Assembly (NCBI RefSeq): GCF_014646815.1
Contig: NZ_BMNZ01000009.1
Span: 1 to 64,000, forward strand
DNA length: 64,000 bases
Reading direction: 5' to 3'
Source of the DNA: Terrabacter tumescens
GTDB taxonomy: Bacteria; Actinomycetota; Actinomycetes; Actinomycetales; Dermatophilaceae
This document shows, piece by piece, positions 4,856-53,571 of the stretch. The notes under the pieces were generated by a model. It did not search any database. It was not told where the DNA came from and saw only the letters and a program-made list of their open reading frames with translations. The position numbers and the translations under genes were made by a program. How positions within the stretch are numbered: the stretch's first letter is position 1; each line of letters starts with the position of its first letter.

Positions 4856-4931
4856 GGGGGAACCGTCGGCGCGAGGCCGGTCGGGCCGCTCGTTCCTCGC
4901 GGCGGGCGGCCTCGCGCCTCCTCCCAAATCC
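4856..4931. other. tRNA-Ser-linked stem-loop element, copy 1
   Basis: On the plus strand the order is GGGGGAACCGTC, a 12-bp stem arm (4868-4879), an internal loop with a further CCGC/GCGG helix, the loop TCGTTCCTC (4890-4898), the second arm (4907-4918), and TCCTCCCAAATCC. The 12-bp helix pairs perfectly. Loop and right flank match the copies at 19921 and 53511, while the stem sequence differs. It lies 14 bases beyond the terminator of tRNA-Ser(GGA). No family recognised. Confidence 0.6.
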
Positions 4932-4944
4932 GGAGACTCCGTCA

Positions 4945-4991
4945 CATGACAGAGGCCCCGCCGCGCTGAGCGCGGCGGGGCCTCTGTCATG
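4945..4991 (-). terminator. Terminator hairpin of tRNA-Ser(GGA)
   Basis: A near-perfect inverted repeat with arms CATGACAGAGGCCCCGCCGC and its complement, loop of about five bases, adjoins the tRNA 3' end. There is no U tract, which is usual for strong stem terminators in this clade; it should stop transcription from either side. Confidence 0.75.
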
Positions 4992-5079
4992 TGGCGGAGG
5001 ATGGGGGATTTGAACCCCCGAGGGTTTTATCCCAACACGATTTCCAATCGTGCGCACTAGGCCACTATGCGAATCCTCC
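4992..5079 (-). tRNA. serT: tRNA-Ser(GGA)
   Basis: 88 nt including an encoded CCA. The acceptor GGAGGAT pairs with the 3' strand ATCCTCC, the anticodon loop is TTGGAAA (anticodon GGA, reading UCC/UCU), and the long variable arm marks class II serine tRNA. T-arm GGGGGTTCAAATCCCCC is intact. Confidence 0.97.
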
Positions 5080-5158
5080 GTCGCGCAGGTTACCCGAGGC
5101 GGAGCCCGCACAAGAAATCGGCGGGCGCCAGGACCCGTCATGCAGCACACTCGGGCGC

Positions 5159-6094
5159 ATGCCAGGCCCCGAGAAGGTCCCGCTCGACACCGACGTCGCC
5201 TGGATCCACGGCTCCCCGTCGCCGCGGCACCTCTCCGACCCGCCGCTCCAGGTCCACCACCTCGCGCCCGACACCGTCCTCGTCCGGCAGAGCAAGGACC
5301 TCACCTACGAGGCGCCGTTCATCCTGCTGCTCCTCGGCGAGGACCGCGCCCTGCTCCTCGACACCGGAGCCGTCGACGGCGCCGAGCTCCGGGCCACCGT
5401 CGACCGGCTCGTTGCAAACCACACGGCCACGCGGACGGGCGACACGGCATACGACCTCGTCGTCGCGCACACGCACGGTCACGGCGACCACGTCGCCGGT
5501 GACGCGGCCTTCGCCGACCGTCCGCACACGACGGTCGTCGGACGCGACCGCACCGACGTCGTCGCCCACTTCGGCTTCACGGACTGGCCGAGCGAGGTGG
5601 TGACGGTCGACCTCGGCGGCCGCTCGCTCGAGGTCTTCGGCATCCCCGGGCACCATGCCGCCTCGATCGCGGTGCACGACGAGCGGACGGGCCTGCTGCA
5701 CACCGGCGACACCGTCTATCCCGGCCGCATCTACGTCGAGGACCCCACCGCGCTGCTCGACACCCTCGACCGGCTCGTCGCCTTCGCCGAGCAGCGCGGC
5801 GTCGAGCACGTGCTCGGCTGCCACGTCGAGATGACCCGACGGCCGGGCCGCGACTACCCCCTCGGCTCGCGCTACCAGCCCGACGAGCCGTCGCCCTTCA
5901 TGACGGTGGACCGGCTGCGCGCGGCGCGCGACGCGTTCCGCACCGTCGCCGACCGCCCGGGCATCCACCGCTTCGACGACATCGTCTTCTGCGTCGGGAC
6001 GGGGCCGCGGGTACTCGTTCCGCTCCAGGCGCGGGCCCTCGTCGAGCAGGTGCGGTGGAGGCTGGGACTGCTCGCCCGACGTCCGAGCACCTGA
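5159..6094 (+). CDS. MBL-fold metallo-hydrolase
   Basis: A 311-residue soluble protein with the metallo-beta-lactamase-fold metal site: HTHGHGDH at residues 104-111, GIPGHH about residue 160, a further Asp in LLHTGDTVY and a C-terminal histidine (LGCHVEM). These are the residues that bind the two metal ions in glyoxalase II-like hydrolases. The substrate cannot be predicted. The start ATG at 5159 follows the tRNA-Ser promoter region; the next gene, argF, follows at 44 bases on the same strand and may be co-transcribed. Confidence 0.85.
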
Positions 6095-6137
6095 GACCGG
6101 ATTGCCGCGCTCGACCTCGCCTGAAACCATCACGTGC

Positions 6138-7151
6138 ATGTCGCTCGCCGCACTCCACCGCCGCAACCTCCTCAAGGAGATCGACCTGACGCCCGACGAG
6201 TTCCGGGCGCTGCTCGACCTCGCCGCCGAGCTCAAGGCCGCCAAGCGAGAGGGCCGCGAGGAGCGCCGCCTGGCCGGCAAGAACATCGCGCTGCTCTTCG
6301 CCAAGACCTCGACCCGCACGCGCTGCGCGTTCGAGGTGGCGGCGGCCGACCAGGGCGCGAGCACGACCTACCTCGACCCGGTCGGCTCGCAGATGGGCCA
6401 CAAGGAGTCGGCGAAGGACACCGCGCGCGTGCTCGGCCGCTTCTACGACGGGATCGAGTACCGCGGCGCCGGCCACGACGTCATCGAGACGCTCGGCGCC
6501 TTCGCCGGCGTGCCCGTCTGGAACGGCCTGACCGACGACTGGCACCCGACGCAGTCGCTGTGCGACGCCCTGACGATGCGCGAGCACGCGGGCAAGCCCG
6601 ACGAGCAGATCGCGTACGCCTACGTCGGCGACGCGCGCTTCAACATGGGCAACTCGCTGCTCGTCACCGGGGCCATCCTCGGCATGGACGTGCGCATCGT
6701 CGCCCCGCGGTCGCTCTGGCCGTCCGACGCCGTCATCGCCATCGCGCGGAGGTATGCCGCCGACACCGGTGCGCGCGTCACGCTCACCGAGGACGTGGCC
6801 GAGGGCGTGCGCGGTGTCGACTTCGTGCACACCGACGTCTGGGTGTCGATGGGTGAGGCCAAGGAGGTCTGGGCCGAGCGCATCGAGCTGCTGACGCCCT
6901 ACCAGGTCAACGCGGATCTCCTTGCGCTGACGGGCAATCCGCAGGTCAAGTTCATGCACTGCCTGCCCGCCTTCCACGACTTGGAGACCGCCGTCGGCAT
7001 GGAGGTGCACCAGCAGTTCGGGCTCAAGGAGCTCGAGGTCACCGACGACGTCTTCGAGTCCGAGGCCTCCGTCGTCTTCGACCAGGCCGAGAACCGGATG
7101 CACACCATCAAGGCCCTCATGGTCGCCACTCTGGTGCAGTTCGACGCCTGA
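6138..7151 (+). CDS. argF: Ornithine carbamoyltransferase
   Basis: A 337-residue enzyme that makes citrulline from ornithine and carbamoyl phosphate, or runs the reverse phosphorolysis in arginine catabolism. The carbamoyl-phosphate motif STRTR is at residues 58-62, HPTQ near 137, and the ornithine-binding HCLPAF near 273. Throughout, the sequence resembles the E. coli ArgF / Pseudomonas ArcB branch (for example [16 protein letters not shown] and YDGIEYRG) rather than the shorter actinobacterial biosynthetic ArgF. No other arg or arc gene is adjacent, so a catabolic or stand-alone role is possible. Start at ATG 6138 fits the family N-terminus. Confidence 0.93.
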
Positions 7152-7205
7152 CGTTCACCCGTTGGTGGTGGCGGCGGCCGCCCACCATGGGGCATAACGG
7201 CAGTC

Positions 7206-8240
7206 ATGCACCTTTCGCGCACCCCCGCCCTCGCGGCCGTCGCCGCCTCGCTCGTCGTCCTCTCCGCCGCAGCGGCCACGGCATCGGCCGCCGACGCCCC
7301 CGGCCAGCAGAAGGACGGGCACTACCAGTTCGCCGTCATCGGCGACGTGCCCTACGGCGACGCCCAGGTCGCGGCCTTCCCGAAGTGGGTCGACCAGATC
7401 AACGCGACGCCGAACCTGTCGTTCACCATCCACGTCGGCGACATCAAGAACGGCTCGTCGACATGCACCAACGAGTACTTCTCGATGATCCGCACCCAGT
7501 TCGACCGCTTCACCATGCCGCTCGTCTACACCCCCGGCGACAACGAGTGGACCGACTGCCACCGCACCAACAACGGCACCTACGACCCGCTCGAGCGCCT
7601 CGCCGCCATCCGGTCGACGTTCTTCCCCCAGCCCGGCCACACGCTCGGCGCCGACATGACAGTGGCGTCGCAGGCGGCGGCCGGCTTCCCCGAGAACGTC
7701 TCGTTCCGCCGGCAGGGCATCGACATCGCGACCCTCCATGTCGTCGGCAGCAACAGCGGGCTGCTCCCCTGGCCCGAGCTGGGCCACCCCACGCCGACTC
7801 CCGAGCAGCTCGCCGAGGAGAAGGTGCGCATGGACAGTGCTGTGGCACAGGTGCGCTCGGCGTTCGCCGACGCCCGGCAGCGTCATGACCGGGCCGTGGC
7901 CCTCTTCCTCCAGGCCGACATGTTCGACCCGACGTATGCCGTGACGTGGGCCGACAACTCGGCCTTCCAGCCGCTCGTGCGCGAGCTCGTCGCGCAGTCG
8001 AAGGCGTTCGACGGAGAGGTCTACCTCTTCAACGGTGACAGCCACGTCTACAACTCGGACCGGCCGCTCGCCGCCGGGTCGACGTGGCTCGACTTCTACG
8101 GCGTGCAGGGCTCGGCCGACAACCTGACCCGCGTCACGGTCGACGGATCGAGCAACAACAAGGACTTCCTCGAGGTCAGGGTCAACCGGCCCGGCGCCGA
8201 GCACGTGCTCTCGTGGGAGCGCGTCCCCTACGCCTCCTGA
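7206..8240 (+). CDS. Secreted metallophosphoesterase-like protein
   Basis: A 344-residue exported protein. Residues 1-29 are a Sec signal peptide (basic start, Ala-rich core, cleavage near ATASAADA). The mature part starts with a calcineurin-like fold: GDVPYGDAQ (first Asp metal ligand), HVGDIKNG (second block), TPGDNEW (GDNE/H block) and a late NGDSHVYN. These are the spaced metal-binding blocks of metallophosphoesterases. Substrate unknown; it would act outside the membrane. It ends at a hairpin shared with the convergent LytR_C gene. Confidence 0.8.
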   Translation: MHLSRTPALAAVAASLVVLSAAAATASAADAPGQQKDGHYQFAVIGDVPYGDAQVAAFPKWVDQINATPNLSFTIHVGDIKNGSSTCTNEYFSMIRTQFDRFTMPLVYTPGDNEWTDCHRTNNGTYDPLERLAAIRSTFFPQPGHTLGADMTVASQAAAGFPENVSFRRQGIDIATLHVVGSNSGLLPWPELGHPTPTPEQLAEEKVRMDSAVAQVRSAFADARQRHDRAVALFLQADMFDPTYAVTWADNSAFQPLVRELVAQSKAFDGEVYLFNGDSHVYNSDRPLAAGSTWLDFYGVQGSADNLTRVTVDGSSNNKDFLEVRVNRPGAEHVLSWERVPYAS

Positions 8241-8257
8241 CGTCCAGCCGCCGGTTC

Positions 8258-8296
8258 GAGGTGGACGCGCCGTGGATTCCGCGGCGCGTTCACCTC
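8258..8296. terminator. Bidirectional terminator hairpin
   Basis: Arms GAGGTGGACGCGCCG (8258-8272) and CGGCGCGTTCACCTC (8282-8296) pair over 15 bp with one G-U, loop nine bases, between two convergent genes. Confidence 0.7.
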
Positions 8297-8344
8297 AACG
8301 GGGCGGGGCCGACCGAGGCCGAGACCGCCGACTCGGACGAGGTC

Positions 8345-8881
8345 TCAGCTGCCGACCGTGATCGTCGGGCACTGGCGCAGGGTCTGCGTCGGCGTCGGCA
8401 CGGCCGGCACCTTGCCGAAGCTCTTCCAGCCGTTGCCCACGACGAGGTCGACGGTGTCGCCCTTGCGCTTGTCGTTGACGAGGACGGCCTGCGGCACGTG
8501 GCTCTTGACGAGCTGGGCCGAGTCGGCGCCCTCGGGTCCGAAGCGCACCTGGGCGACCTGCTTGATCGTCGCCTTCTTCGGGTCGTTGCCGATGGCCTTG
8601 ACCTTGAAGCCGCGATCCGTCGCGGTCTTGGCGACCGCGGCGGCCAGCCCCTTGCGCGAGGTGGCGTTGTAGACGTTGAGGCTCACGTCCTCGGGGCTGA
8701 GCGGCGCGGCCGGGACCTCGGTCGTGCAGGGTCCCGGCGTCGGCGTCGTGTCACGGAAGTAGGTGGACGCGTAGTAGAACGCGCCGGCCAGGCTGAGCAG
8801 GACCACCGCGATGACGATCGTCGACCGGCGCTGGCGCCGCACCCGGTAGGTGCGGTCGTCCTCGTCCACGACCTCCGACAT
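8345..8881 (-). CDS. LytR_C-domain membrane-anchored protein
   Basis: A 178-residue protein with a basic cytoplasmic N-terminus (residues 1-20), one membrane segment (about 21-40, STIVIAVVLLSLAGAFYYAS) and an extracytoplasmic LytR C-terminal domain (VSLNVYNATSRKGLAAAVAKTATDRGF to about residue 160). This domain is found downstream of LCP ligases and alone; its role in the envelope is not established. It follows the VapB-like gene by 45 bases on the same strand, a pairing I recognise as common in actinobacteria. Confidence 0.85.
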   Translation of the reverse strand: MSEVVDEDDRTYRVRRQRRSTIVIAVVLLSLAGAFYYASTYFRDTTPTPGPCTTEVPAAPLSPEDVSLNVYNATSRKGLAAAVAKTATDRGFKVKAIGNDPKKATIKQVAQVRFGPEGADSAQLVKSHVPQAVLVNDKRKGDTVDLVVGNGWKSFGKVPAVPTPTQTLRQCPTITVGS

Positions 8882-8926
8882 CCACGCTCCTTCGTCCGTC
8901 GCCCCCGATGGTCGGGCGGCCTCGTG

Positions 8927-9223
8927 TCAGGAGAGTACGAGGACTCGGGCGTGAAGGACAGGACGTTGCTGCAGCGCGGCGCGTAGTGCCCGGTGCAGCC
9001 CGTCCTCGAGGTAGAGCTCGCCCTCCCACTCCACGCAGTGCGGGAAGAGGTCCCCGTAGAACGTCGAGTCGTCCGCGAGCAGGCCACGCAGGTCGAGCGT
9101 GCTCTTGGTCGTGATGAGCTCGCCGAGCTGCACCACCCGAGGCGGGACGTTGGACCAGTCCTTGGTCGTCTCTAGTCCATGGTCGGGGTACGGGCGGGAG
9201 TCGCCGACGGCCTTGAAAATCAC
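8927..9223 (-). CDS. VapB-like conserved actinobacterial protein
   Basis: A 98-residue protein beginning at GTG 9223. The conserved segments VGDSRPYPDHGL, TTKSTLDLRGLLADDSTFYGDLF and YLEDGLHRALRAALQQRPVLHARVL match a family often labelled type II VapB antitoxin in databases. No PIN-domain toxin is adjacent, so toxin-antitoxin function is doubtful. A TATGCT hexamer six bases upstream of the GTG suggests a leaderless transcript. It is divergent from the HerA-like gene. Confidence 0.75.
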   Translation of the reverse strand: MIFKAVGDSRPYPDHGLETTKDWSNVPPRVVQLGELITTKSTLDLRGLLADDSTFYGDLFPHCVEWEGELYLEDGLHRALRAALQQRPVLHARVLVLS

Positions 9224-9229
9224 CGGGTC

Positions 9230-9267
9230 AGCATAGGCGGCGAACGTGGACGACCCACCACTAGAGT
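9230..9267. promoter_or_regulatory. Divergent -10 elements, probably leaderless transcripts
   Basis: In the 51-base gap, TATGCT (minus strand, 9230-9235) lies six bases before the VapB-like GTG, and TAGAGT (plus strand, 9262-9267) lies seven bases before the HerA-like GTG. Both spacings fit transcription starting at the start codon, as is common in actinobacteria. No clear -35 boxes. Confidence 0.4.
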
Positions 9268-9274
9268 TCGAAGC

Positions 9275-10873
9275 GTGACCGAGACAGCAGCCTCAGGGGC
9301 CCCTCAGACGGGTGGCACCGGCGACACGAGCCAGATCGACGAGATCCGCGCCGGCTACGCCTTCGACGGGGGCGTGCTCAAGCTCGGCGCCGCGGTCGTC
9401 GACGGCCAGGCGCACGCCGACGCCCCGGTGCAGATCCCGCTCGGCGTGCTCAACCGCCACGGCCTCGTCGCCGGCGCGACGGGCACCGGCAAGACCAAGA
9501 CCCTCCAGCTCATGGCCGAGCAGCTGTCCGACCAGGGCGTTCCGGTCTTCCTCGCCGACATGAAGGGCGACCTCTCCGGCCTCGCCACGCCGGGCGAGGG
9601 CGGCGACAAGATCACCAGCCGCGCGGCCGACGTCGGCATGCCGTGGACGGCGACGGCATACCCCACCGAGTTCTTCTCGCTCGGCGGCAAGGGCGACGGC
9701 ATCGCGATCCGCGCCACGATCACGAGCTTCGGCCCGACCCTGCTCAGCAAGGTCCTCGGCCTCAACGACACGCAGGAGAGCAGCCTCGGGCTGATCTTCC
9801 ACTACGCCGACAAGAACGGCCTGGCGCTGCTCGACCTCAAGGACCTGCGCGCCGTCATCAGCCACCTGACCTCCGACGAGGGCAAGGCCGACCTCAAGGA
9901 GCTCGGTGGTCTCTCGAGCGCGACGGCCGGCGTCATCCTGCGCAACCTCATCACCTTCGAGGACCAGGGCGCCGGCGACTTCTTCGGTGAGCCCGAGTTC
10001 GAGACGAGCGACCTGCTGCGCACGGCCGCCGACGGCAAGGGGATCATCTCCTGCCTCGAGCTGCCACAGGTCCAGGACCGGCCGCAGCTGTTCTCGACCT
10101 TCCTCATGTGGATGCTCGCCGATCTCTTCCACGACCTCCCCGAGGAGGGCGACCTCGACAAGCCAAAGCTCGTCTTCTTCTTCGACGAGGCGCACCTGCT
10201 CTTCAACGACGCCAGCAAGGCGTTCCTGCAGGCCATCGAGCAGACCGTCCGGCTCATCCGGTCCAAGGGCATCGGCGTCTTCTTCGTGACGCAGTCGCCC
10301 AAGGACGTCCCTGCCGGCGTGCTCGCGCAGCTCGGCAACCGCGTCCAGCACGCCCTGCGCGCCTTCACCCCCGACGACGCCAAGGCGCTCAAGCAGGCCA
10401 TCGCGACCTACCCGCACACGGCATACGACATGGAGAAGCTCCTGACGAGCCTTGGCATCGGCGAGGCCGTCGTCACGGTGCTGTCCGACAGGGGCGTGCC
10501 GACCCCGGTCGCGTGGACCCGGATGAAGGCGCCCAACTCGCTCATGGACCCCTCGTCCCAGGCGACGATGGACGCCGTGATCGCCGCGTCGACGATCAAG
10601 ACGAAGTATGCCGCCGTCGTCGACCGCGAGTCCGCCTACGAGATGCTCGCGGCTCGCCTTCAGGCAGCACCCGCCGCGCCCGCTCCAGCGGCCCCCGCCC
10701 CCGCCCCAGCGCCCGCAGCGCCCGCCCCAGCGCCCAAGCGGGCGGCCAAGGAGGAGCCGAGCATCATCGAGCAGGTTGCCGGCAGCTCGGCCTTCAAGTC
10801 GATGCTCCGCTCGGCCGGCACCGTGATCGGCCGCGAGATCACTCGCAGCATCTTCGGCACGCGCAAGCGCTGA
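9275..10873 (+). CDS. HerA-like ATPase, DUF853 family
   Basis: A 532-residue protein with a RecA-type ATPase core. Walker A GATGTGKT is at residues 67-74 and Walker B LVFFFDEAHLL near residue 305. The DUF853 family is related to HerA/FtsK DNA translocases; its cellular role is not settled. Residues about 470-495 form an Ala/Pro-rich linker before a conserved C-terminal tail ending GTVIGREITRSIFGTRKR. The start is GTG 9275, just after a TAGAGT -10, in preference to an upstream in-frame codon that would overlap the divergent gene. Confidence 0.9.
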   Translation: MTETAASGAPQTGGTGDTSQIDEIRAGYAFDGGVLKLGAAVVDGQAHADAPVQIPLGVLNRHGLVAGATGTGKTKTLQLMAEQLSDQGVPVFLADMKGDLSGLATPGEGGDKITSRAADVGMPWTATAYPTEFFSLGGKGDGIAIRATITSFGPTLLSKVLGLNDTQESSLGLIFHYADKNGLALLDLKDLRAVISHLTSDEGKADLKELGGLSSATAGVILRNLITFEDQGAGDFFGEPEFETSDLLRTAADGKGIISCLELPQVQDRPQLFSTFLMWMLADLFHDLPEEGDLDKPKLVFFFDEAHLLFNDASKAFLQAIEQTVRLIRSKGIGVFFVTQSPKDVPAGVLAQLGNRVQHALRAFTPDDAKALKQAIATYPHTAYDMEKLLTSLGIGEAVVTVLSDRGVPTPVAWTRMKAPNSLMDPSSQATMDAVIAASTIKTKYAAVVDRESAYEMLAARLQAAPAAPAPAAPAPAPAPAAPAPAPKRAAKEEPSIIEQVAGSSAFKSMLRSAGTVIGREITRSIFGTRKR

Positions 10874-10942
10874 CCCCCACCGTCTCCCAGCCGGGGCGCC
10901 TCGACCGTTCGTGGGCCGGGGCGCCCTTTCGCGTGCCGATGC

Positions 10943-10969
10943 AACCAAAGCCGCTCCCGGGGTCTCGTC
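10943..10969 (+). promoter_or_regulatory. Candidate ECF-type promoter
   Basis: AACC at 10943-10946 and CGTC at 10966-10969, 37 bases upstream of the sigma-factor ATG, resemble the AAC/CGTC elements of autoregulated ECF sigma promoters. The 19-base spacer is slightly longer than the usual 16-17, so this is tentative. Confidence 0.35.
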
Positions 10970-11005
10970 CCAGTGGAAGCATCGGGAGGGACGGCAGGTG
11001 GGCTC

Positions 11006-11517
11006 ATGCACGAGAGCGACGACGGTGACCCGGTCCGGGCCGCGTACGACCTGTCGTACCGACGGCTCGTGACGCAGCTGGCCGCGCTCTGCGGAAACCT
11101 CCCCGAGGCGGAGGACATCGTGCAGGAGGCCTTCGTCACCGCGATGACGCACCGTCGCGACTTCGTCGAGGTCGCCAACCGGGAGGCCTGGCTGCGCACC
11201 GTGGCCGTCAACCTGCTGCGCAACCGCTGGCGGAGGGCCCGGGTGACCGCCCGGGTGCTGCCGAAGTTCCGTGCCGAGCTGAGCATCGACCTCGGCCCGG
11301 GCACGCCGGAGGACCACGTGGCCGTGGTGTACGCGCTCAGCCAGCTCAGCCTGCCGGTGCGCATCACCGTCGTGCTGTACTACATCGCCGACCTCAGCGT
11401 CGCGCAGGTCGCCGCCGAGCTGGGGTGCCCGAGGGGACGGTCAAGGCGCGGCTCGCCCGGGCCCGCGCCCAGATGGCCACCCACCTCACCGACCGCGAGG
11501 AGGCCGACCATGTCTGA
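11006..11517 (+). pseudogene. ECF sigma factor, SigE-like, frameshifted in region 4
   Basis: From ATG 11006 the frame encodes sigma region 2 (RRLVTQLAALCGNLPEAEDIVQEAFVTAM, residues about 14-48) and the start of region 4 (YALSQLSLPVRITVVLYYIADLSVAQVAAELG). At 11421-11426 the run TGGGGTG is one G short of the expected CTG-GGG-GTG: with one base restored, the frame continues VPEGTVKARLARARAQM and stops at TGA 11515-11517, overlapping the next ATG as in a normal operon. As given, the frame stays open into the downstream gene and region 4 loses its recognition helix. Either a true mutation or a homopolymer sequencing error. Confidence 0.8.
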
Positions 11518-12598
11518 GCTGACGAGCTTCGCCCGCGACACCGAGCGGCGCGTCGAGCAGCCGCCCTTCGAGACCCTCATGTGGCGCCAGCGCCGGGCCC
11601 GTCGTCGCCGCGCGGCGTGGCTCTCGGCGGCGGCCGTGGCTGCCGTCCTCGCGCTGGCGCTGGCCGTGTCGGGGCTCGGGCGGCTCGGCGCCCAGCGGCT
11701 GCCGTCGGCGCCGACCCCGCAGCTGACATCGGTGGCCGTCCCCGACTGGAGCGCCGACGAGGTCGTCGGCCACCCGGACGCGTTCGTCGCCGCCCAGCTC
11801 GAGTCCCGCGTCGACCGCCGGACCGTCCTGACGGTCTGGAAGCGGTGCGTCGCGCCCCGCGCCGACCACGACTGCCTCGGCCGAGAGGCCTTTGCCGTGG
11901 TGGACGGGACCGACCACCGCCTCCTCGCCCTCGGTGCGGTCACCGGGTCGAGCAACCAGCCCTCGCTGGGCGCTCCCGGGATGTACCGCGAGGTCGGCGA
12001 CGGCCTCTGGTACTGGGCGCACACCGGCCCCGGTCCCTACCTGCTCTCCGCGACGATGCACCAGCCGGTGGCACTCACCGTCATGGACCGCCCCGTGGCC
12101 GTGCCCTACGGCACCCCCACCGTCGAGTGCGCCGAGGGCGAGGGCCTGTGCGCACTCGACGCCAACGCGCGCACGCTCCAGCGGGTCTCGCTCCCCGCCG
12201 TCGACGCCGTCCGCTGGGCGACGCCCAACGCCCGGGGGTGCGGCATCTGGGGCCTCGCCGGCGCCGGCGACGACCTGCGCCTCGTGGTCCAGCAGCGCAA
12301 CGGCTCCTTCTCCACGGCACGGCTGCCCGGGACCGGGCACGGGACCACCATGGCCGAGGGCGGAGCCGGCTGCGAGACAGCCGTCTTCCAGAGCCGTTCC
12401 GACATGGTCGTGGAGCTGCTCGTCAGCCTCGACGAGGGAGCCACGTGGCAGGTGCGCGGCCCGATCGCGCCCCCTCAGCACCTCGAAGGACTCATCGAGG
12501 AGCAGCCCCGGCTCCGGGTGCTCCTCCCACCACGCTGGTCAGCCCTCCCCAGCACCCGGAGCATCTTCCCGATGCCCGACCCGTTGACCCCGCTCTGA
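11510..12598 (+). CDS. Membrane protein encoded with the ECF sigma factor (possible anti-sigma or effector)
   Basis: A 362-residue protein starting at ATG 11510, overlapping the sigma stop by eight bases. It has a short cytoplasmic part (about 45 residues, Arg-rich at 29-36), one membrane segment (about 38-56, AAWLSAAAVAAVLALALAVSGL) and a large extracytoplasmic domain of about 300 residues with paired cysteines (RCVAPRADHDC, VECAEGEGLC, RGCG, GCETA). This topology suits a sigma-factor partner, but no zinc-binding anti-sigma motif (HxxxCxxC) is seen. It is fused in frame to the broken sigma gene in this sequence. Confidence 0.7.
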   Translation: MSELTSFARDTERRVEQPPFETLMWRQRRARRRRAAWLSAAAVAAVLALALAVSGLGRLGAQRLPSAPTPQLTSVAVPDWSADEVVGHPDAFVAAQLESRVDRRTVLTVWKRCVAPRADHDCLGREAFAVVDGTDHRLLALGAVTGSSNQPSLGAPGMYREVGDGLWYWAHTGPGPYLLSATMHQPVALTVMDRPVAVPYGTPTVECAEGEGLCALDANARTLQRVSLPAVDAVRWATPNARGCGIWGLAGAGDDLRLVVQQRNGSFSTARLPGTGHGTTMAEGGAGCETAVFQSRSDMVVELLVSLDEGATWQVRGPIAPPQHLEGLIEEQPRLRVLLPPRWSALPSTRSIFPMPDPLTPL

Positions 12599-19900: not shown

Positions 19901-19920
19901 ATTGCAACGAGGATGGCGGT

Positions 19921-19981
19921 GGGACGCCGTCGCCTGCGAGCCGCCTCGTTCCTCGGCGCCTCGCTGGCTCCTCCCAAATCC
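19921..19981. other. tRNA-Ser-linked stem-loop element, copy 2
   Basis: Plus-strand order: GGGACGCCGTCG (19921-19932), stem GCGAGCCGCC (19936-19945), loop TCGTTCCTC (19946-19954), stem GGCGCCTCGC (19955-19964), then GGCTCCTCCCAAATCC. Nine of ten stem positions pair. It is 14 bases from the terminator of tRNA-Ser(CGA). Loop and flanks match copies at 4856 and 53511 while the stem does not. Confidence 0.6.
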
Positions 19982-19995
19982 CTCGGCTCTCGATA

Positions 19996-20042
19996 GAACG
20001 ACGAAGGACCCGACGGTGAAGCATGTCGGGTCCTTCGTCGTT
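19996..20042 (-). terminator. Terminator hairpin of tRNA-Ser(CGA)
   Basis: Arms AACGACGAAGGACCCGAC and GTCGGGTCCTTCGTCGTT pair perfectly over 18 bp with a ten-base loop, adjoining the tRNA 3' end. Confidence 0.8.
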
Positions 20043-20043
20043 T

Positions 20044-20133
20044 TGGCGGTGGCGGTGGGATTTGAACCCACGGTGGAGTTACCCCCACACACGCTTTCGA
20101 GGCGTGCTCCTTAGGCCGCTCGGACACGCCACC
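20044..20133 (-). tRNA. tRNA-Ser(CGA)
   Basis: 90 nt including encoded CCA. Acceptor GGTGGCG pairs with CGCCACC, anticodon loop CTCGAAA (anticodon CGA, reading UCG), long variable arm, and T-arm GTGGGTTCAAATCCCAC. Confidence 0.97.
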
Positions 20134-44667: not shown

Positions 44668-46632
44668 TCACTCCCCCTCGCGGCGGAAGCCCGCGCGGCG
44701 GGCCGCCTCCTCGTTGTAGAACCACACGTCCGGCTCGACGTCGTCGTAGCCGGCGTCGTCGGGGCCGAGGAAGGTCGTGCCGTCGCGGCGTCCCTTGATC
44801 GCGTGGCCGAGCGGCTGCGCGCCGTCGGCGATCGGTGCGGCAGAGCCGAGTCCGAAGCCGCCGTCGACGACCTCGTCGAAGCCGGACATCCGTCGACCGG
44901 ACGCGGGCTGCTCCTGGGTGGACTCGGGCTGGGCGGATTCCGGCTGGGCCGACTCGTCCTGGACCGGCTGCTGGGCCGACTCGTCCTGGGCCGGCTGCTC
45001 GGCGGACTGGGAGGCCGGCTCGTCGGACGCCCCCTCCGTCGCGTCGGACCTCGGGTCGTCCACCGACCACGCGGTGTCCGTGGGCGCGGCGGAGTCGTGC
45101 TGCTGCTCGTCGCTCTCCTCCACGACGGGCTCGTCGCCCGCGTCAGCGGTCGGGGCCGCACTCTCGGGGGCGTCGGGGGCGTCGGTCCAGGCCGTGTCGG
45201 TGACACCGTCGTCGCCGGTGTCCGACGCGCGGTCATCCGTCGTGTCGGACGCGCTGTCAACCGTCGGGGCGGACGCGGTCGCCGGTGCGCGGTCAGCGTC
45301 GTCGCTCGCCGGCTCGGCCAGCTCGTCGTCCTCGTCGCTCTCGTGGGAGTGCGGCGCCATGTCGACGTCGAGCCCCTGGTCGGCAGCGTCCTCGTCGCCC
45401 GCGTCCTCGTCGAGGCCGCGCTCGCCGGGGGTGGTCGCCCAGGCCTGGCCGCGGTGGTCGCCCGGGTCGCTCGCCGGGGTGCCACCGTCCGAGAGGACGT
45501 CGTCGCGCTCGTCCAGAGCGGGGACCTCGACCCGCTCCGGCTCGTCGGCGTCGGCCACGGGCGGGGCGAAGGAGTGGTCCGTCGCATCGGCAGCCGCGTC
45601 CGTGGAGGCGTCGGCGCTCATGTCGGTGCGGGTGCTCGCGTCGGTGTCGCTGTGGTCGCTCATGGTCGTGGACCTTTCGTCGGGAAGCCCTTCCGGTGCA
45701 CTCCCAGTACCCACTGAGCCCTGCGACGCCGCGTCGTCCTCGTGACCGGCCTCGGCTGCCGCCTCAGGCGCCACCTGGTCCGTCGCCAGGTCCGTCGCCG
45801 TGTCCGTCTCTTCGTCCGTCTCTTCGTCCGTGTCCTCGCGCCTCGTGCCGAGGACCTCGGGCTCCTCCGACGCGTAGGAGGACTCGTCAGCCGTCTGCTC
45901 GTCGACCTCACGGTCGGCGTCGCTCGCGAGGTCGGTGCCCTCACCCGCGGCCACAGCCGGCTCGACGGGCTCTTCGGTCGCAGCCGGCTCTTCGGCTCTG
46001 GCGGCGGGCGCGAAGGGGTTCTCGGCGTCGGCGAGGTCGTCCTCGTCGTCGTCGTCACGCGTGAAGGCCGCGGCGCCCACGGCGGACGCGCCGGCCACGG
46101 CTGCGGCACCTGCCGCGCCGCCCCGGTGCGCGGGCTCCTGCCCCGGGAGGCGGTTGCCGTCGTCGTCCACGCGGTAGCCCTCGTCGTCGGTGGCGACGTC
46201 GGGGTCGACACGGTCGGCCTCGCGCTCCAGTCCCGCGTGCTCGGCGCGGGCCGCCTCGGCGGTGGCGCGGTGCTGCTCGGCCTGCTCCTCGAGGCGTCGG
46301 GCCTCGGCAGCCTGCTGCTGCGCCTCAGCCGCCTGTCGTTCGGCCTGCGCCCTCTGGCGCTCGGCCTCGGCCCTCTGCCGCTCTGCCTCGGCGGCCTGCC
46401 GCTCGGCGTCGGCCCGCGCGTCGGCGGCCATGGCGGCGGTGACCGACGCCCGGTCCTGGGTGTCCTGCACCTCGGGACGACGGTCGTCGACGCGGGCGCG
46501 GAGCTCGCCGGCCTCGAAGCGACGCGCCTCGACCTCGCGACGGCGCCCTGCCGAGACGAACAACCAGATGATCACTGCAATGACGACGATCGCCACCACG
46601 ATCCACAGAACCGTCTTGCCTGCGTCGGACAT
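44668..46632 (-). CDS. Acidic coiled-coil membrane protein with C-terminal sunset domain
   Basis: A 654-residue protein. One membrane helix at residues 8-27 (VLWIVVAIVVIAVIIWLFV), a coiled coil at about 55-155 built from ERQRAEAERQ-type heptads, then about 450 residues of disordered Asp/Glu/Ala/Ser-rich sequence with short repeats (QDESAQQP, PESAQPES), and a C-terminal sunset domain (DDVEPDVWFYNEEAARRAGFRREGE). An internal ATG at 45663 has its own GAAAGG site, so the C-terminal half may also be made separately or may once have been a separate gene. Function unknown. Confidence 0.75.
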   Translation of the reverse strand: MSDAGKTVLWIVVAIVVIAVIIWLFVSAGRRREVEARRFEAGELRARVDDRRPEVQDTQDRASVTAAMAADARADAERQAAEAERQRAEAERQRAQAERQAAEAQQQAAEARRLEEQAEQHRATAEAARAEHAGLEREADRVDPDVATDDEGYRVDDDGNRLPGQEPAHRGGAAGAAAVAGASAVGAAAFTRDDDDEDDLADAENPFAPAARAEEPAATEEPVEPAVAAGEGTDLASDADREVDEQTADESSYASEEPEVLGTRREDTDEETDEETDTATDLATDQVAPEAAAEAGHEDDAASQGSVGTGSAPEGLPDERSTTMSDHSDTDASTRTDMSADASTDAAADATDHSFAPPVADADEPERVEVPALDERDDVLSDGGTPASDPGDHRGQAWATTPGERGLDEDAGDEDAADQGLDVDMAPHSHESDEDDELAEPASDDADRAPATASAPTVDSASDTTDDRASDTGDDGVTDTAWTDAPDAPESAAPTADAGDEPVVEESDEQQHDSAAPTDTAWSVDDPRSDATEGASDEPASQSAEQPAQDESAQQPVQDESAQPESAQPESTQEQPASGRRMSGFDEVVDGGFGLGSAAPIADGAQPLGHAIKGRRDGTTFLGPDDAGYDDVEPDVWFYNEEAARRAGFRREGE

Positions 46633-46769
46633 GCCATTCCCCTCACGGATTACGGGTCCTCGCGACCACGTCACCCGAAACCTACTGCGCCGGAGCGCTC
46701 CCGCGGCACCCAGCACACCGCTGGACTCGTCTCGTCGGCCGCCGAGCAGGTGAGCGCACGGCAGGCGGG

Positions 46770-48413
46770 TCAGCCCAGTCCGAGCTTCTTCGCGGTGGTC
46801 TCGCGCATCTCGACCTTGCGGATCTTGCCCGTGACCGTCATCGGGAACTCCTCGACGATCTCGACGTAGCGCGGGATCTTGTAGTGCGCGAGCTGCCCGG
46901 TGCAGAACTCACGCAGCGACTCGGCCGTCAGGGGCGTCGCGCCGTCCTTCATCCGGATCCAGGCGCACAGCTCCTCACCGTACTTCTCGTCGGGGACGCC
47001 GATGACCTGGGCGTCGAGGATGTCGGGGTGGGTGTAGAGGAACTCCTCGATCTCACGCGGGTAGACGTTCTCACCGCCGCGGATGACCATGTCCTTGATG
47101 CGGCCGGTGATCTCGACGTAGCCGTCGTCGTGCATGACGCCGATGTCGCCGGTGTGCATCCAGCCGTCCTCGATGGCCTCCGCGGTCTTGTCGGGCTGCT
47201 CCCAGTAGCCGAGCATCACCGAGTAGCCCTTGGTCATGAACTCTCCCGCGGTGCCGCGCGGAACGGTCTCTCCCGTCAGGGGATCCGCGATCTTGATCTC
47301 GAGGTGCGGACCGACGCGCCCCACGGTGCCGACCTTCTGGTCGAAGGTGTCGTCGGTGCGGTTCTGCGTCGACACCGGCGACGTCTCGGTCATGCCGTAG
47401 CAGATCGTCATCTCCTCGATGCCGGCCGCGATGAGCTGCTTCATCAGCTCTGCGGGACAAGGGGATCCGGCCATGATGCCGGTGCGCACGCTGGACAGGT
47501 CGTAGTCGGCGAAGTCGGGCAGGTTCCACTCGGCGATGAACATCGTGGGCACGCCGTAGAGCGAGGTGACCTTCTCGTCCTGCGTGGCCCGCAGGGTCGC
47601 CGCCGGGTCGAAGCCGGGTGCCGGGATGACCATGCAGGCGCCGTGCGTCGTGCACGCGAGGTTGCCCATGACCATGCCGAAGCAGTGGTAGAAGGGCACC
47701 GGGATGCAGACGCGGTCGGCCTCGGTGTAGTCGCAGAGCTCACCGACGAAGTAGCCGTTGTTGAGGATGTTGCGGTGGCTCAGGGTCGCGCCCTTGGGGA
47801 AGCCCGTGGTGCCCGAGGTGTACTGGATGTTGATGGGGTCGGTGTTCTTCAGGCCTGCTTGTATGCCGGCCAGCTCGCTCTCGGGCACCTCGTCGGCACG
47901 GGCGACCAGGTCGTCCCAGTCGGACGTGCCGATGTAGACGACGCGCTCGAGCCCGTCGACCTCGTCCCGCACCTCGTCGACCATCTGGCGGTAGTTGCTC
48001 GTCTTGAACGACTCGGCCGCGACCAGCGTCGAGATGCCGGCCTGGCCAAGGACGTACTGCAGCTCGTGGGAGCGGTAGCTCGGGTTGATGTTGACGAGGA
48101 TGGCGCCGATCTTGGCCGTCGCGTACTGCACGAGCGTCCACTCGGAGCAGTTCGGCGCCCAGATGCCGACCCGGTCACCGGTCTGCACCCCGATCGCCAG
48201 CAGCGCGCGGGCCAGCCGGTCGACGTCGGCCCGCAGCTCGGCATACGTCCACCGCTTGCCCTGCGCGACGTCGACGAGCGCCTCACGCCCGCCGAAGAGC
48301 GCGACGGTGGCGTCGAAGTTGTCGCCGATCGTCGTCTCGAGCAGCGGCGTGTCGGTCTCACCCCGGGTGTGCGAGAGCGAGGGGTCGAGGGTGGCGGGCG
48401 GAGCAGCGGTCAT
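46770..48413 (-). CDS. Acyl-CoA ligase (AMP-binding), ACSF2-like
   Basis: A 547-residue adenylate-forming enzyme. The P-loop-like motif YTSGTTGFPKGATLSHRN is near residue 190, the GYGMTETSP-type A5 motif is CYGMTETSPVS near 333, GWMHTGDIG (A7) and GRIKDMVIRGGENVYPREIEE (A8) follow, and the catalytic lysine is in TVTGKIRKVEMRE (A10). It should activate a fatty or other carboxylic acid as its CoA thioester; chain length cannot be predicted. Confidence 0.93.
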   Translation of the reverse strand: MTAAPPATLDPSLSHTRGETDTPLLETTIGDNFDATVALFGGREALVDVAQGKRWTYAELRADVDRLARALLAIGVQTGDRVGIWAPNCSEWTLVQYATAKIGAILVNINPSYRSHELQYVLGQAGISTLVAAESFKTSNYRQMVDEVRDEVDGLERVVYIGTSDWDDLVARADEVPESELAGIQAGLKNTDPINIQYTSGTTGFPKGATLSHRNILNNGYFVGELCDYTEADRVCIPVPFYHCFGMVMGNLACTTHGACMVIPAPGFDPAATLRATQDEKVTSLYGVPTMFIAEWNLPDFADYDLSSVRTGIMAGSPCPAELMKQLIAAGIEEMTICYGMTETSPVSTQNRTDDTFDQKVGTVGRVGPHLEIKIADPLTGETVPRGTAGEFMTKGYSVMLGYWEQPDKTAEAIEDGWMHTGDIGVMHDDGYVEITGRIKDMVIRGGENVYPREIEEFLYTHPDILDAQVIGVPDEKYGEELCAWIRMKDGATPLTAESLREFCTGQLAHYKIPRYVEIVEEFPMTVTGKIRKVEMRETTAKKLGLG

Positions 48414-48508
48414 CGGTGGCCTCCCGGCGTGCGGCGGTGGACGGTCTCACCACACCCAACCCCGCGCGGCGACCGCGCACAAGGCACCGCTCCCGATGTG
48501 GAGCGAAC

Positions 48509-50173
48509 TCACACGTCGGCGTCGTCCCGGCGGTCCTCCTCACCGTCGTCCCCGCGGTCATCCTCGTCGTCGTCATCGCCCTCATCACCGGGCGCCCGGT
48601 CGGTGAGTCGCCCGGTGAACATCAGGGCGCCCGCGGCCAGCAGCGCCGTGACACCGAACGCCTCACGCAGCGCGTCGAGGCGCGCGGTGGCGTTGACCTT
48701 CGTGATCGCCGACGCGGTGGCGGCGTCGAGCTGGGTGGCGGCCAGGGCCTCGGTGAGCTGCTTGTCGGAGATGAAGGGCACGCCGCCGACGAGCTGGGTC
48801 GAGGCCTGGGCCTTGACCGACGCTGGCACGGCCGGGTTCTCCTGGATGCCCGAGGCGACCGAGGCGGTCAGCGTCGCGAGCAGCACCGAGCCGACGAGGG
48901 CGGTGCCCAGCGAGGCCCCGAGGTTGGTGCCGGTGTTCTCCAGGCCCCCGACCTCCGCGCTCTCGGAGTCCGGCACCGACGAGACGGTGACGCTGCCGAG
49001 CTGCGACGACAGCGCGCCGAGGCCGAAGCCGATGAGCAGCATCGGGATCGCGACGACGCCGGCGTTGGCGCCCGGGTCCATGCCGGCGACGAGCACGAGG
49101 ATGCCGGCGAGCACCGAGAAGAGCCCGATGCGCACGACCCGACGCGGATTGGCCCGTGGCCACACCTTGGGGATGCCGGCGGCGGCCGCGAGCAGGGCGA
49201 ACGACAGCGGCAGGATCCGCAGGCCCGTCTGGAGCGCGTCGAGCTCGAGCACGACGGAGAGGAAGAGGGGCACGGCGAAGAAGACGCCCGCCTGGACGAT
49301 GTACTGCGAGAAGAACATCGTCAGGCCCGCGACGAGCCCTCGGTTGCGCAGCAGCGCCGGACGCAGGAGCGGCTCGCCGCCGGTGCGCACGAGGCGCTCC
49401 TCCCAGCACATGAACGCGAAGACGACGAGCACGCCGAGCAGGATGAGCCAGATCGACGGCGACGCGCCGAGCACCTTGGGAGCGCCCGTCTTGGCGACGA
49501 CCCAGCCCCACTCGCTGGTGCGCAGCACGCCGTAGACGACCGAGCCGAGACCGACCACCGAGAGCACCGAGCCGACGAGGTCGATGCGGGCGGGACTCGG
49601 CGGCACGTCGGCCACCTTGCGGAGGAAGGCGATGATCGCGAGGACGATGACGACCTCGCCGGCGAAGACGTAGCGCCACGAGGCGAAGGTCGTGACGGCG
49701 CCGCCGATGAGCGGCCCGGCAGCAACCGCCATGGCGCCCGCTGCGGCGACGAGGCCGTAGGCGGCGGCGCGCCGCTCGGCCGGGAAGTTCGCGGCGACGA
49801 GCGCGACGATCGCCGGCATGATCAGCGAGGCGCCGAGCCCCTCGAGCAGCGACCAGCCGAGGAGCAGCACCGGGAGGTTCGGGGCGAGCGCCGTGACGAG
49901 CGAGCCGGCGCCGTAGACGAGCAGCCCGATCGCGAAGGCGCGACGTCGTCCCAGGATCGTGCCGAGCTTGCCGCCCGTGATCATCATCGTGGCCATGACG
50001 AGCGTGTAGAGCGTGATCGCGGTCTGGATCCCGCTGATCGTCGTGCCGAGGTCCGAGGCGACGACGGCCATCGAGACGTTCATGACCGAGCTGTCGAGGG
50101 TCATGAGGAACTGGCTCGCCGCGAGGACGGCGAGCACCAGTCCGGCGTTGCCCCGCACAGGTGTGCTCGACAT
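48509..50173 (-). CDS. MFS drug exporter, DHA2 type (14 helices)
   Basis: A 554-residue transporter with about 14 membrane segments. The DHA2 signature LDSSVMNVSMAVVASDLG lies in TM1, GGKLGTILGRRRAFAIGLL is the loop 2-3 motif, and motif C appears in LGWSLLEGLGASLIMPAIVALVAANFP. The cytoplasmic tail is extremely acidic (Asp/Glu/Arg). ATG 50173 starts directly before TM1. Substrate unknown; no regulator is adjacent. Confidence 0.9.
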   Translation of the reverse strand: MSSTPVRGNAGLVLAVLAASQFLMTLDSSVMNVSMAVVASDLGTTISGIQTAITLYTLVMATMMITGGKLGTILGRRRAFAIGLLVYGAGSLVTALAPNLPVLLLGWSLLEGLGASLIMPAIVALVAANFPAERRAAAYGLVAAAGAMAVAAGPLIGGAVTTFASWRYVFAGEVVIVLAIIAFLRKVADVPPSPARIDLVGSVLSVVGLGSVVYGVLRTSEWGWVVAKTGAPKVLGASPSIWLILLGVLVVFAFMCWEERLVRTGGEPLLRPALLRNRGLVAGLTMFFSQYIVQAGVFFAVPLFLSVVLELDALQTGLRILPLSFALLAAAAGIPKVWPRANPRRVVRIGLFSVLAGILVLVAGMDPGANAGVVAIPMLLIGFGLGALSSQLGSVTVSSVPDSESAEVGGLENTGTNLGASLGTALVGSVLLATLTASVASGIQENPAVPASVKAQASTQLVGGVPFISDKQLTEALAATQLDAATASAITKVNATARLDALREAFGVTALLAAGALMFTGRLTDRAPGDEGDDDDEDDRGDDGEEDRRDDADV

Positions 50174-50281
50174 GGGCCCAGCGTCGCGCCAGGGCCGGCG
50201 GCCGCTCATCACCCCCAGAGGATGAAAGTCCCCGTCGGCAGGGCCGCCCGCATCGCCGCCGGTGAAGCCACCCGGAAAGCA

Positions 50282-50314
50282 CGAGACCCCGACCGGCAAC
50301 CGGTCGGGGTCTCG
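50282..50314 (-). terminator. Terminator hairpin of tRNA-Arg
   Basis: Perfect 15-bp arms CGAGACCCCGACCGG and its complement with a three-base loop, 20 bases beyond the tRNA 3' end. Confidence 0.85.
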
Positions 50315-50334
50315 CATTCTGTCTCAACACAGAG

Positions 50335-50407
50335 TGCACCCGTAGGGATTCGAACCCCAAACCTTCTGATCCGTAGTCAGATGCTCTATCCGTTGAGCTA
50401 CGGGTGC
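50335..50407 (-). tRNA. tRNA-Arg(ACG)
   Basis: 73 nt, CCA not encoded. Acceptor GCACCCG pairs with CGGGTGC, anticodon loop CTACGGA (anticodon ACG, edited to ICG by TadA, encoded at 20144), T-arm GGGGTTCGAATCCC. Unlike the serine tRNAs here, no CCA is encoded. Confidence 0.96.
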
Positions 50408-50837
50408 GTCGTTCCTCACCGGGAGGAACGAAAAGTTACCTTAGCGCCTCGGGTCCGCATCCACGAAATCGGCCCCGGAGAGCGCCACCCGGAGACGGTC
50501 CGGGCGGCCCCGCGAGAGGGACCACGCGGCATACGCAGGCGGTGTCGGGACCACCGGCCGAGCGCGCCCCGACCCTACGGATGAGTACTGAAAATCCTGC
50601 AAGAATCCGACAACGATCCGTCGTAATTCTTGCTGGCTCGACGTGGTGTGAGGCGTCTCACCGGTATCGACCCGGCTTGCGGCCTGAGGCACTCCCGTCG
50701 GCGCGTACCTTGAAGACATCACGTCATCTGTTCAGCATGTGGACACCTGCAGCCCGATCCGGGTCTGCCCAGGATCCACGTGGGGGACAGCTTCACACCG
50801 GCACGACGTGGTGCCGGGCGGCACCGCGCGCGAAGGG
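50408..50837. other. 430-base region upstream of pckG, no gene seen
   Basis: Next to the tRNA-Arg 5' end is a small hairpin TCGTTCCTC/GAGGAACGA (50409-50430), then a GC-rich part with one CGGCATAC octamer (near 50528), then an AT-richer stretch (about 50583-50640) that probably holds the pckG promoter. No open frame here has coding composition, and no -10/-35 pair could be assigned with confidence. Confidence 0.5.
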
Positions 50838-52682
<1,845 letters not shown>

Positions 52683-52729
52683 GGTCGGTCCTCCGCCTGC
52701 TGGCCGGCGGGCGGCGGACGACGTGATGC

Positions 52730-52759
52730 AGGGCCCGGCACCTCTGGGTGCCGGGCCCT
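52730..52759 (+). terminator. pckG terminator
   Basis: Arms AGGGCCCGGCACC (52730-52742) and GGTGCCGGGCCCT (52747-52759) pair perfectly with a four-base loop, 48 bases after the pckG stop. Confidence 0.8.
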
Positions 52760-52788
52760 CCGTCATGCACGGACGGGACACCCGAGGG

Positions 52789-52822
52789 TGCGTATGCCGC
52801 GTCGCCCGGCACCCGGCATACG
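52789..52822. repeat. Inverted pair of the GTATGCCG octamer
   Basis: GCGTATGCCG and its complement CGGCATACGC form 10-bp arms around a spacer of about 14 bases, in the gap between pckG and the DUF6328 gene. Could form a hairpin or be two oppositely oriented copies of the window-wide octamer. Confidence 0.7.
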
Positions 52823-52866
52823 CGACCCTCGCGCCCTCCCGTCCTCCACGGCACACGGCGGGGTAC

Positions 52867-53370
52867 ATGAGAGACATGAGCGACCCCGACGGCTACAGCC
52901 GCGACGAGAGCGAGGCCGAGCGGCTCGACCGCAACTTCAACGAGCAGCTCCAGGAGCTGCGCATCGCCCAGGCCGGCGTCCAGATCCTCTTCGCGTTCCT
53001 GCTGACGATCCCCTTCCAGCAGCGCTTCACGACGCTGACCGACCTGCAGCGCGACATCTACGTCGTGACGCTCGTGTCCATCGCGATCAGCACGCTCGTG
53101 TTCATGACACCCGTCGCGATGCACCGGATGCTCTTCCGCGAGGGCCTCAAGGACTTCGTCGTCCGGCACACCGACACGTTGATCGGCGCCGGGATGTTCT
53201 TCCTCGTCGTCGGCATCATCGGCGGCGTCGTGCTCGTGCTCGACGTCCTGCTCTCGCACACGACCGCCATCTGGATCGGCGGCGGCCTGACGCTGCTCGC
53301 AGTTGCGCTCTGGCTCGTGCTGCCCCTCTCCCAGCGCCGGCGCCGCCGCCGCGAGGACCCCGACACCTGA
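52867..53370 (+). CDS. DUF6328 membrane protein
   Basis: A 167-residue protein with an acidic N-terminus (SRDESEAERLDRNFNEQLQELRIAQAGVQILFAFLL) and four membrane segments (about 38-52, 67-88, 105-128, 137-155), ending in a run of arginines. The N-terminal amphipathic helix leading into TM1 is family-typical. A second ATG at 52876 is an alternative start. Function unknown. Confidence 0.8.
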   Translation: MRDMSDPDGYSRDESEAERLDRNFNEQLQELRIAQAGVQILFAFLLTIPFQQRFTTLTDLQRDIYVVTLVSIAISTLVFMTPVAMHRMLFREGLKDFVVRHTDTLIGAGMFFLVVGIIGGVVLVLDVLLSHTTAIWIGGGLTLLAVALWLVLPLSQRRRRRREDPDT

Positions 53371-53373
53371 ACC

Positions 53374-53495
53374 GTCGAGAGGCCAACGTTTGCGGGTCCT
53401 CGCAAGTCGAGAGGCCAACGTTGCGGGTCCTCCACCGTCGAGAGGCCAACGTTTGCGGGTCCTCCACCGTCGAGAGGCCAACGTTGCGGGTCAAC
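53374..53495. repeat. Four tandem 31/32-bp repeats
   Basis: The segment GTCGAGAGGCCAACGTT begins at 53374, 53406, 53437 and 53469 and continues (T)GCGGGTCCTC; copies alternate between CAACGTTTGCG and CAACGTTGCG, giving spacings 32, 31, 32. The core CAACGTTG is palindromic. It directly follows the DUF6328 gene. There are no spacers, so this is not a CRISPR array. Confidence 0.9.
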
Positions 53496-53510
53496 GCTCG
53501 CCCCGGCGGC

Positions 53511-53571
53511 GGGACACCGTCGCTGGGCAGGCCCCTCGTTCCTCGGGGCCTGCCCAGCTCCTCCCAAATCC
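53511..53571. other. tRNA-Ser-linked stem-loop element, copy 3
   Basis: Plus-strand order: GGGACACCGTCG (53511-53522), stem CTGGGCAGGCCCC (53523-53535), loop TCGTTCCTC (53536-53544), stem GGGGCCTGCCCAG (53545-53557), then CTCCTCCCAAATCC. The 13-bp stem is perfect and unrelated in sequence to the stems of the copies at 4856 and 19921, while loop and flanks are the same. It lies 15 bases from the terminator of tRNA-Ser(GCU). Confidence 0.65.

Follow-up and report, generated by a model that had tools for sequence, protein, structure and literature searches.

Hairpin units at the 3' ends of tRNA genes in Actinomycetes suggest a very small insertion element of a type not yet described

Hairpin units beside three tRNA-Ser genes

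Three serine transfer RNA (tRNA-Ser) genes in a 64,000-nucleotide stretch of Terrabacter tumescens (contig NZ_BMNZ01000009.1, positions 1 to 64,000; hereafter the window, whose numbering is used throughout) are each accompanied by a copy of the same small hairpin unit (Table 1). All three genes, called by ARAGORN, lie on the minus strand and differ in anticodon (GGA, CGA and GCT), and a palindrome separates each of them from its unit. Read on the plus strand, the unit consists of a copy of the tRNA end, N-CCGTCG, a variable hairpin, CTCCTCCC and the T-arm of the tRNA copied in inverted orientation, followed by the terminator-like palindrome and the tRNA gene. An initial annotation, made without database searches, had described three such copies with a common loop and tail, and the window sequence bears this out. 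The loop TCGTTCCTC was located in all three by an exact-match scan of the window; the tail CTCCTCCCAAATCC occupies positions 4918-4931, 19968-19981 and 53558-53571, and elsewhere in the window it has just two near matches, each with three mismatches. A pattern joining loop and tail has three matches in the genome, against none for a reversed-pattern control, and occurs in 12 of 149 genomes of the family, where the reversed control again finds none. It is confirmed that the three copies are real and beyond chance.

The initial annotation overlooked that the 5' flank copies the adjoining tRNA gene's own 3' end. This flank is a direct copy, seen as the complement on the plus strand and reaching up to the T-loop, and the 3' flank is an inverted copy of the T-arm of the same tRNA. 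At copy 3, for instance, the flank reads GGCGGCGGGA and continues as CACCGTCG, while the tRNA-Ser(GCT) gene reads GGCGGCGGGA and continues as TTTGAACC. At several loci the segment from AAATCCC to the palindrome has, by eye, the length of a tRNA acceptor end and finishes in CA, so that it may represent the entire tRNA 3' end, inverted and diverged. The CCTCC motif that had suggested an anti-Shine-Dalgarno function is better explained by the constant CTCCTCCC standing beside an inverted T-arm copy. The copies had also been placed past perfect terminators; the palindromes and the different tRNA-Ser genes are there, but a pattern scan did not report the copy 3 palindrome as a terminator, a term that stands here for a reading by eye. 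The proposed helix length of 10-13 bp fails for copy 1, whose helix is longer.

Two further exact matches to TCGTTCCTC in the window were rejected as copies: they belong to an unrelated inverted repeat (50409-50431, TCGTTCCTC-ACCGG-GAGGAACGA) just outside the 5' end of a tRNA-Arg gene. The fourth tRNA-Ser gene of the window (TGA, 61890-61977) has no copy, either by eye or with the family model R2 described below. Across the window's genome, R2 returns seven matches at E <= 0.1, namely the three window copies and four others beside tRNA-Pro (two), tRNA-Leu and an apparent tRNA-Ala fragment. Copy 3 is directly adjoined by a tandem array of a 32-bp repeat, ACCGTCGAGAGGCCAACGTTTGCGGGTCCTCC (53371-53492, 3.9 copies), and in several members of the genus this locus shows similar GTCGA-GGCCA repeats, as judged by eye. 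Two genomes of the genus have 300-base stretches in common with Terrabacter sp. MAHUQ-38 and Terracoccus sp. 273MFTsu3.1, which makes it probable that the window belongs to that group.

Table 1. Parts of the three hairpin units and the tRNA genes that they adjoin, in window coordinates
Feature	Position	Strand	Remark
Copy 1, distal copy of tRNA-Ser(GGA) 3' end	4848..4861	+	GCGGGGATGGGGGA, one base shorter than in the gene
Copy 1, CCGTCG - hairpin - CTCCTCCC	4863..4925	+	loop TCGTTCCTC 4890-4898
Copy 1, inverted tRNA T-arm copy	4926..4931	+	AAATCC
Copy 1, terminator-like palindrome	4944..4991	.	between hairpin and tRNA; by eye
tRNA-Ser(GGA)	4992..5079	-	flank copied from the 3' end at 4992-5008
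Copy 2, distal copy of tRNA-Ser(CGA) 3' end	19914..19924	+	TGGCGGTGGGA
Copy 2, CCGTCG - hairpin - CTCCTCCC	19927..19975	+	loop TCGTTCCTC 19946-19954
Copy 2, inverted T-arm copy	19976..19982	+	AAATCCC
Copy 2, terminator-like palindrome	19997..20043	.	by eye
tRNA-Ser(CGA)	20044..20133	-	3' end 20044-20060 is the flank source
Copy 3, distal copy of tRNA-Ser(GCT) 3' end	53505..53514	+	GGCGGCGGGA
Copy 3, CCGTCG - perfect hairpin - CTCCTCCC	53517..53565	+	loop TCGTTCCTC 53536-53544
Copy 3, inverted T-arm copy	53566..53572	+	AAATCCC
Copy 3, terminator-like palindrome	53586..53640	.	by eye
tRNA-Ser(GCT)	53641..53730	-	3' end 53641-53657 is the flank source

Distribution, stem covariation and target genes

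Further copies with compensatory stems, which the initial annotation had proposed to look for in relatives, were found with three successive family models. R1 was built from 19 copies picked by exact pattern, which biases it toward the conserved loop; a search of 297 genomes belonging to the order gave 27 with copies (E <= 0.001). With R2, built from 77 copies, 39 genomes were positive among 394 of the class, and 25 of the loci found were read. Searches spanning more than 40 genomes apply stricter filters. R3 (E <= 1e-4) finds copies in 5 of 396 genomes of a phylum sample, all of the same class, the sample's share of other classes not being shown. One R1 match lacking both a tRNA and CTCCTCCC (L048) was dropped as probably false, and a locus with a run of N (L059) was omitted. 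As judged by eye on the 25 loci, the loop TCGTTCCTC is common to part of the class and is replaced elsewhere by short, variable loops, while CCGTCG and CTCCTCCC are constant. A contig scan gave at least 113 stretches; among the 80 loci examined, R1 matched strongly (E <= 2.2e-6) in nine, weakly in five (E 0.03-0.05) and not at all in the remainder. The strong matches all carry actinobacterial titles: Flexivirga (two), Intrasporangium, Terracoccus, Terrabacter, Kineosporia, Pseudactinotalea, Knoellia and a Propionibacteriales metagenome-assembled genome.

The element matches no Rfam family: at the gathering threshold the window yields tRNAs and the signal recognition particle (SRP) RNA only, and the 37 matches obtained at E <= 10 in 53490-53650 all fall under their own gathering scores. 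The SRP RNA is of the bacterial small type, its gene lying at 2703-2799 on the minus strand. Titles and abstract openings of open-access papers contain no apparent description of such elements, a scope that does not show their absence from print; one study had removed tRNA-related clusters (PMC2267715).

The claim that the helix is kept while its sequence varies is upheld by the wider collection. Among the first 19 sequences, 13 of 14 stem pairs changed on both sides; among 103 distinct sequences the figure is 16 of 18, with 289 double-change cells, and 88.6% of the cells of the stem alignment are paired, against 65.7% after shuffling. The 103-sequence alignment was fitted to the model, which biases its figures toward the structure.

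Target genes were surveyed on 108 distinct copies, obtained from a scan of 100 chosen loci (115 rows, of which 7 duplicates were dropped). A complete tRNA gene lies within 400 bases of 89 of them: tRNA-Ser (53), Pro (17), Gly (8), Leu (5), Ala (4) and Met (2). The other 19 were sorted by reading. Three stand at complete transfer-messenger RNA (tmRNA) genes (L064, L026 and L057). In eight the neighbour is a tRNA 3' half severed near the anticodon, in one it is a tmRNA end severed within the T-arm, and in four the T-arm is interrupted by an insertion sequence; of the last three, two are at contig ends and one has no visible end. A further tmRNA case, L286, stands outside the 108. Seven kinds of target are hence represented, the six tRNA types and tmRNA. 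Where the tRNA gene is complete (89 copies), the hairpin ends 46-84 bases from it in 75 and at most 206 bases from it in 88; at L285, which is counted among the 89, the tRNA is 345 bases off and the flank has no match.

Flank sequence varies with the target. When the 14 distal-flank bases nearest the hairpin are compared with the end of the downstream tRNA, all positions agree in 53 of the 108 copies and 11 or more in 98, compared with 180 of 1563 mismatched flank/tRNA pairings reaching 11 or more; this control, which kept loci without a called tRNA, peaks at 8-9. In the 77 copies taken into the direct-repeat-length test, the commonest end point of the exact repeat is the tRNA 3' boundary (12 exactly, 24 within one base), with 46 shorter and 19 longer. 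The 3' flank, tested on 78 copies, matches the T-arm of its own tRNA at 8 of 8 positions in 52. Where the T-arm differs from the commonest, CAAATCCC, the 3' flank fits its own tRNA better at 25 of 31 loci, equally well at 2 and worse at 4. A minority of copies have GGCATCC-type 3' flanks.

The same tRNA ends also receive other insertions. In one genome (G193), an insertion sequence that we take to be of the IS481 type has entered tRNA 3' ends next to the hairpin at two loci (L251 and L252), and at tRNA-Pro it is accompanied by a 15-bp duplication, TGGTCGGGATGACAG, ending at the tRNA gene end. In G003 and G008, tRNA-Ser is touched by ends resembling those of this insertion sequence.

Gain, persistence and rival explanations

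One pair of loci captures an empty and an occupied state. The empty tRNA-Ser(CGA) site (L243 and L244, in G002 and G004) reads GCAGGTGAC-TGGCGGTGGCGGTGGGA-TTTG, while the occupied site of another genus (L019) reads GCAGGTGAC-TGGCGGTGGCGGTGGGA-hairpin unit-TGGCGGTGGCGGTGGGA-TTTG, so that the 17-bp TGGCGGTGGCGGTGGGA is present once in the former and twice in the latter. Like hairpins also stand at unlike targets: in two genomes of one genus, the 33-base hairpins at tRNA-Gly (L040) and tmRNA (L064) are 0.94 alike, and within one genome those at tRNA-Gly (L062) and tmRNA (L064) are 0.85 alike, each being flanked by the sequence of its own gene. Tandem units occur at five loci (L011, L280, L283, L278 and L042) and are exact at L280 and L283, and the palindrome together with the tRNA end is exactly duplicated over 66 bases at L268 and 57 bases at L272. 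In the window's genus, copies have also been lost or reduced to remnants, and G001 and G003 have none. At L256, L257, L259 and the CGA loci of G002 and G004, tRNA 3' halves have been displaced together with hairpins by an integrative element that apparently crosses over near the tRNA-Ser anticodon. At L064 (G299), three hairpin copies at and near the tmRNA enclose an island that encodes an integrase domain and has apparent type I restriction-modification genes.

The explanation that we favour, although it falls just short of being probable, is a non-autonomous, gene-less DNA insertion unit that enters tRNA and tmRNA 3' ends at the T-loop. The constant part, N-CCGTCG, the variable palindromic stem-loop and CTCCTCCC, would insert at the T-loop and become surrounded by copies of the target, with the tRNA 3' end direct on the far side and the T-arm inverted on the near side, followed by the palindrome. 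Because the unit carries copies of the tRNA end and a terminator-like palindrome before the gene, the tRNA gene stays whole. The units would move as DNA, one strand presumably folding so that its GGGA/TCCC base mimics the core of the target's T-arm, and an enzyme would act in trans; copies would afterwards persist by descent and decay. A folded single strand recreates the recombination core in integron attC sites and in the attP of CTX phage. It is unlikely, though conceivable, that this extends to a system spanning the class Actinomycetes, where a hairpin of single-stranded DNA recombines with tRNA T-loops and each time rebuilds its recognition core from the target through a host recombinase (XerC/XerD or other), with no mobile gene involved. 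Bacterial mobile DNA often docks at tRNA 3' ends, and here a gene-less unit carrying the target end in both orientations occurs even in small, streamlined genomes. Such a unit would point to a folded-strand recombination process not yet known, or else to a new tRNA-linked RNA element.

Several observations weigh against an insertion unit. The empty and occupied sites belong to different genera, and 12 of 14 bases of the L019 stem arm agree with window copy 2, a unit beside the same type of tRNA; the gain may thus be a transfer between equal loci and not a jump. The tRNA-Ser(CGA) stems of G002, G004 and G005 are inherited at the locus. Stems of one genome usually differ: among 17 stems of the window's own family, arm identity is 0.49 for different tRNAs of one genome (5 pairs), 0.53 when genomes differ and the tRNA is the same (64) and 0.51 otherwise (67), whereas simple copying would give more. 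Array polarity is mixed and was left unused as evidence. No gene-bearing version of the unit was recognised, and among the viral contigs matching two patterns (7 and 20) none of the 27 scores with R3 at E <= 0.1; by eye, 18 of the 20 matching the second pattern are one unrelated sequence. A mobilising enzyme was sought in seven positive genomes of 1.0-1.8 Mb. PF00665, PF00078 and PF01797 have no match in any of the seven, which hold 14 tyrosine recombinases (1-3 each). Of the ten scanned, four score above the XerD cut-off and five have XerC as their best model, just below its cut-off; one (G725) has no match, and none reaches the integron-integrase cut-off. The units may be moved by XerC/XerD, by another enzyme or by no dedicated enzyme. 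Finally, refolding of whole hits gives a wobble frequency of 6.9% on the minus strand, a value that returns below.

The rival that the initial annotation had raised as a small RNA convergent with the tRNA can be widened to a host RNA element, in which the hairpin, transcribed in the tRNA direction or convergently, influences how the tRNA 3' end is processed, terminated or protected from antisense transcription and is inherited with the gene. We regard this as unlikely, while recognising that strong stem covariation, inheritance of the CGA copies in the genus, retention in genomes of 1.0-1.8 Mb, a constant orientation and a similar position relative to the RNA gene all speak for it. Base-pair composition bears on the choice. 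The aligned inner stem contains 14 G-T and 9 A-C among 976 cells, and in 95 refolded inner stems wobble pairs amount to 1.5% on the plus strand and 1.1% on the minus strand, compared with 6.9% in the tRNA stems of the same loci. The terminator palindromes before the tRNA are also low (2.0-3.3%), and whole hits give 2.7% on the plus strand and, on the minus strand, the tRNA level itself; the test is weak for both reasons, and leans toward DNA short of being decisive. The identity of a convergent small RNA is left unsupported by it. Patchy distribution, decay within one genus and a loop unconserved outside some families also count against a host RNA. To the left of copy 2, moreover, a reading frame appears to start there and run away from the hairpin, which would then not simply be the terminator of a convergent gene. 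A sigma-70 promoter scan saw none at copy 3, and has little weight because the same scan missed the palindrome as a terminator.

More doubtful is a product of host replication, in which template switching at the T-loop and the terminator palindrome yields tRNA-end copies in direct and inverted orientation and quasi-palindrome correction keeps the stems perfect, with no dedicated enzyme. Quasi-palindrome template switching could indeed also renew stems, everything except the CCGTCG/CTCCTCCC hairpin resembles a copy of the target in alternating orientation, and the exact local duplications at L268 and L272 fit, as does the absence of the tested mobiliser families from the small genomes; nevertheless, the constancy of CCGTCG and CTCCTCCC across families of the class and the near-identical hairpins at two target genes are left unexplained. 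Direct repeats of a tRNA 3' end are typical of tRNA-specific integrative elements, which counts in favour of the units being relic attachment sites of a phage, an integrative and conjugative element or an island whose genes were lost. Integrative elements do occur at the same loci, including the G299 island beside the tmRNA copies. Such an origin is nonetheless improbable, given that the short hairpin-to-tRNA distance in 88 of 89 copies leaves no room for genes, that the crossover of the integrative elements seen at tRNA-Ser(CGA) apparently lies close to the anticodon, and that tyrosine recombinases are few in the small genomes and mostly XerC/XerD-like.

Comparison with known systems

The initial interpretation as a whole is partly supported, and its suggestion of a REP-like sequence is among the parts without support. 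Like REP elements mobilised by RAYT proteins, the units are small, gene-less intergenic hairpins with several copies per genome. REP elements are scattered with no tie to a class of genes, whereas 89 of the 108 copies lie at a complete tRNA gene and 16 of the other 19 at tmRNA or at cut or interrupted tRNA or tmRNA ends, so that nearly all judgeable copies are at such 3' ends; their arms are derived from the target, and no Y1 transposase match was found in any of the seven small genomes. With miniature inverted-repeat transposable elements (MITEs) they share shortness, the lack of genes and a flanking target-site duplication, but their inverted arm is taken from the target, neither a parent transposon's terminal inverted repeats nor an autonomous parent sharing them was recognised, and PF00665 is found in none of the seven small genomes. 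The IS481-type insertion of G193 uses the same target, with its duplication ending at the tRNA 3' end, but it bears a gene, has other ends and lacks the hairpin.

The attachment sites of tyrosine integrases at tRNA genes likewise combine a direct repeat of the tRNA 3' end with a tRNA gene left whole. The present units differ in being about 110-130 bp long, with no integrase gene between the repeats, in their constant, covarying hairpin and in the many types of RNA gene that they adjoin. From integron attC sites the units differ in that their base copies the tRNA T-arm and not GTTRRRY (GGGA stands opposite TCCC in 17 of 19 aligned copies and opposite TCCG in 2, without the attC core GTTRRRY/RYYYAAC), in the constancy of CCGTCG and CTCCTCCC, and in the lack of gene cassettes. 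What they have in common with attC is constant base arms, an unpaired internal segment, a base that recreates a core, an occurrence in tandem arrays and, above the constant arms, a variable terminal stem.

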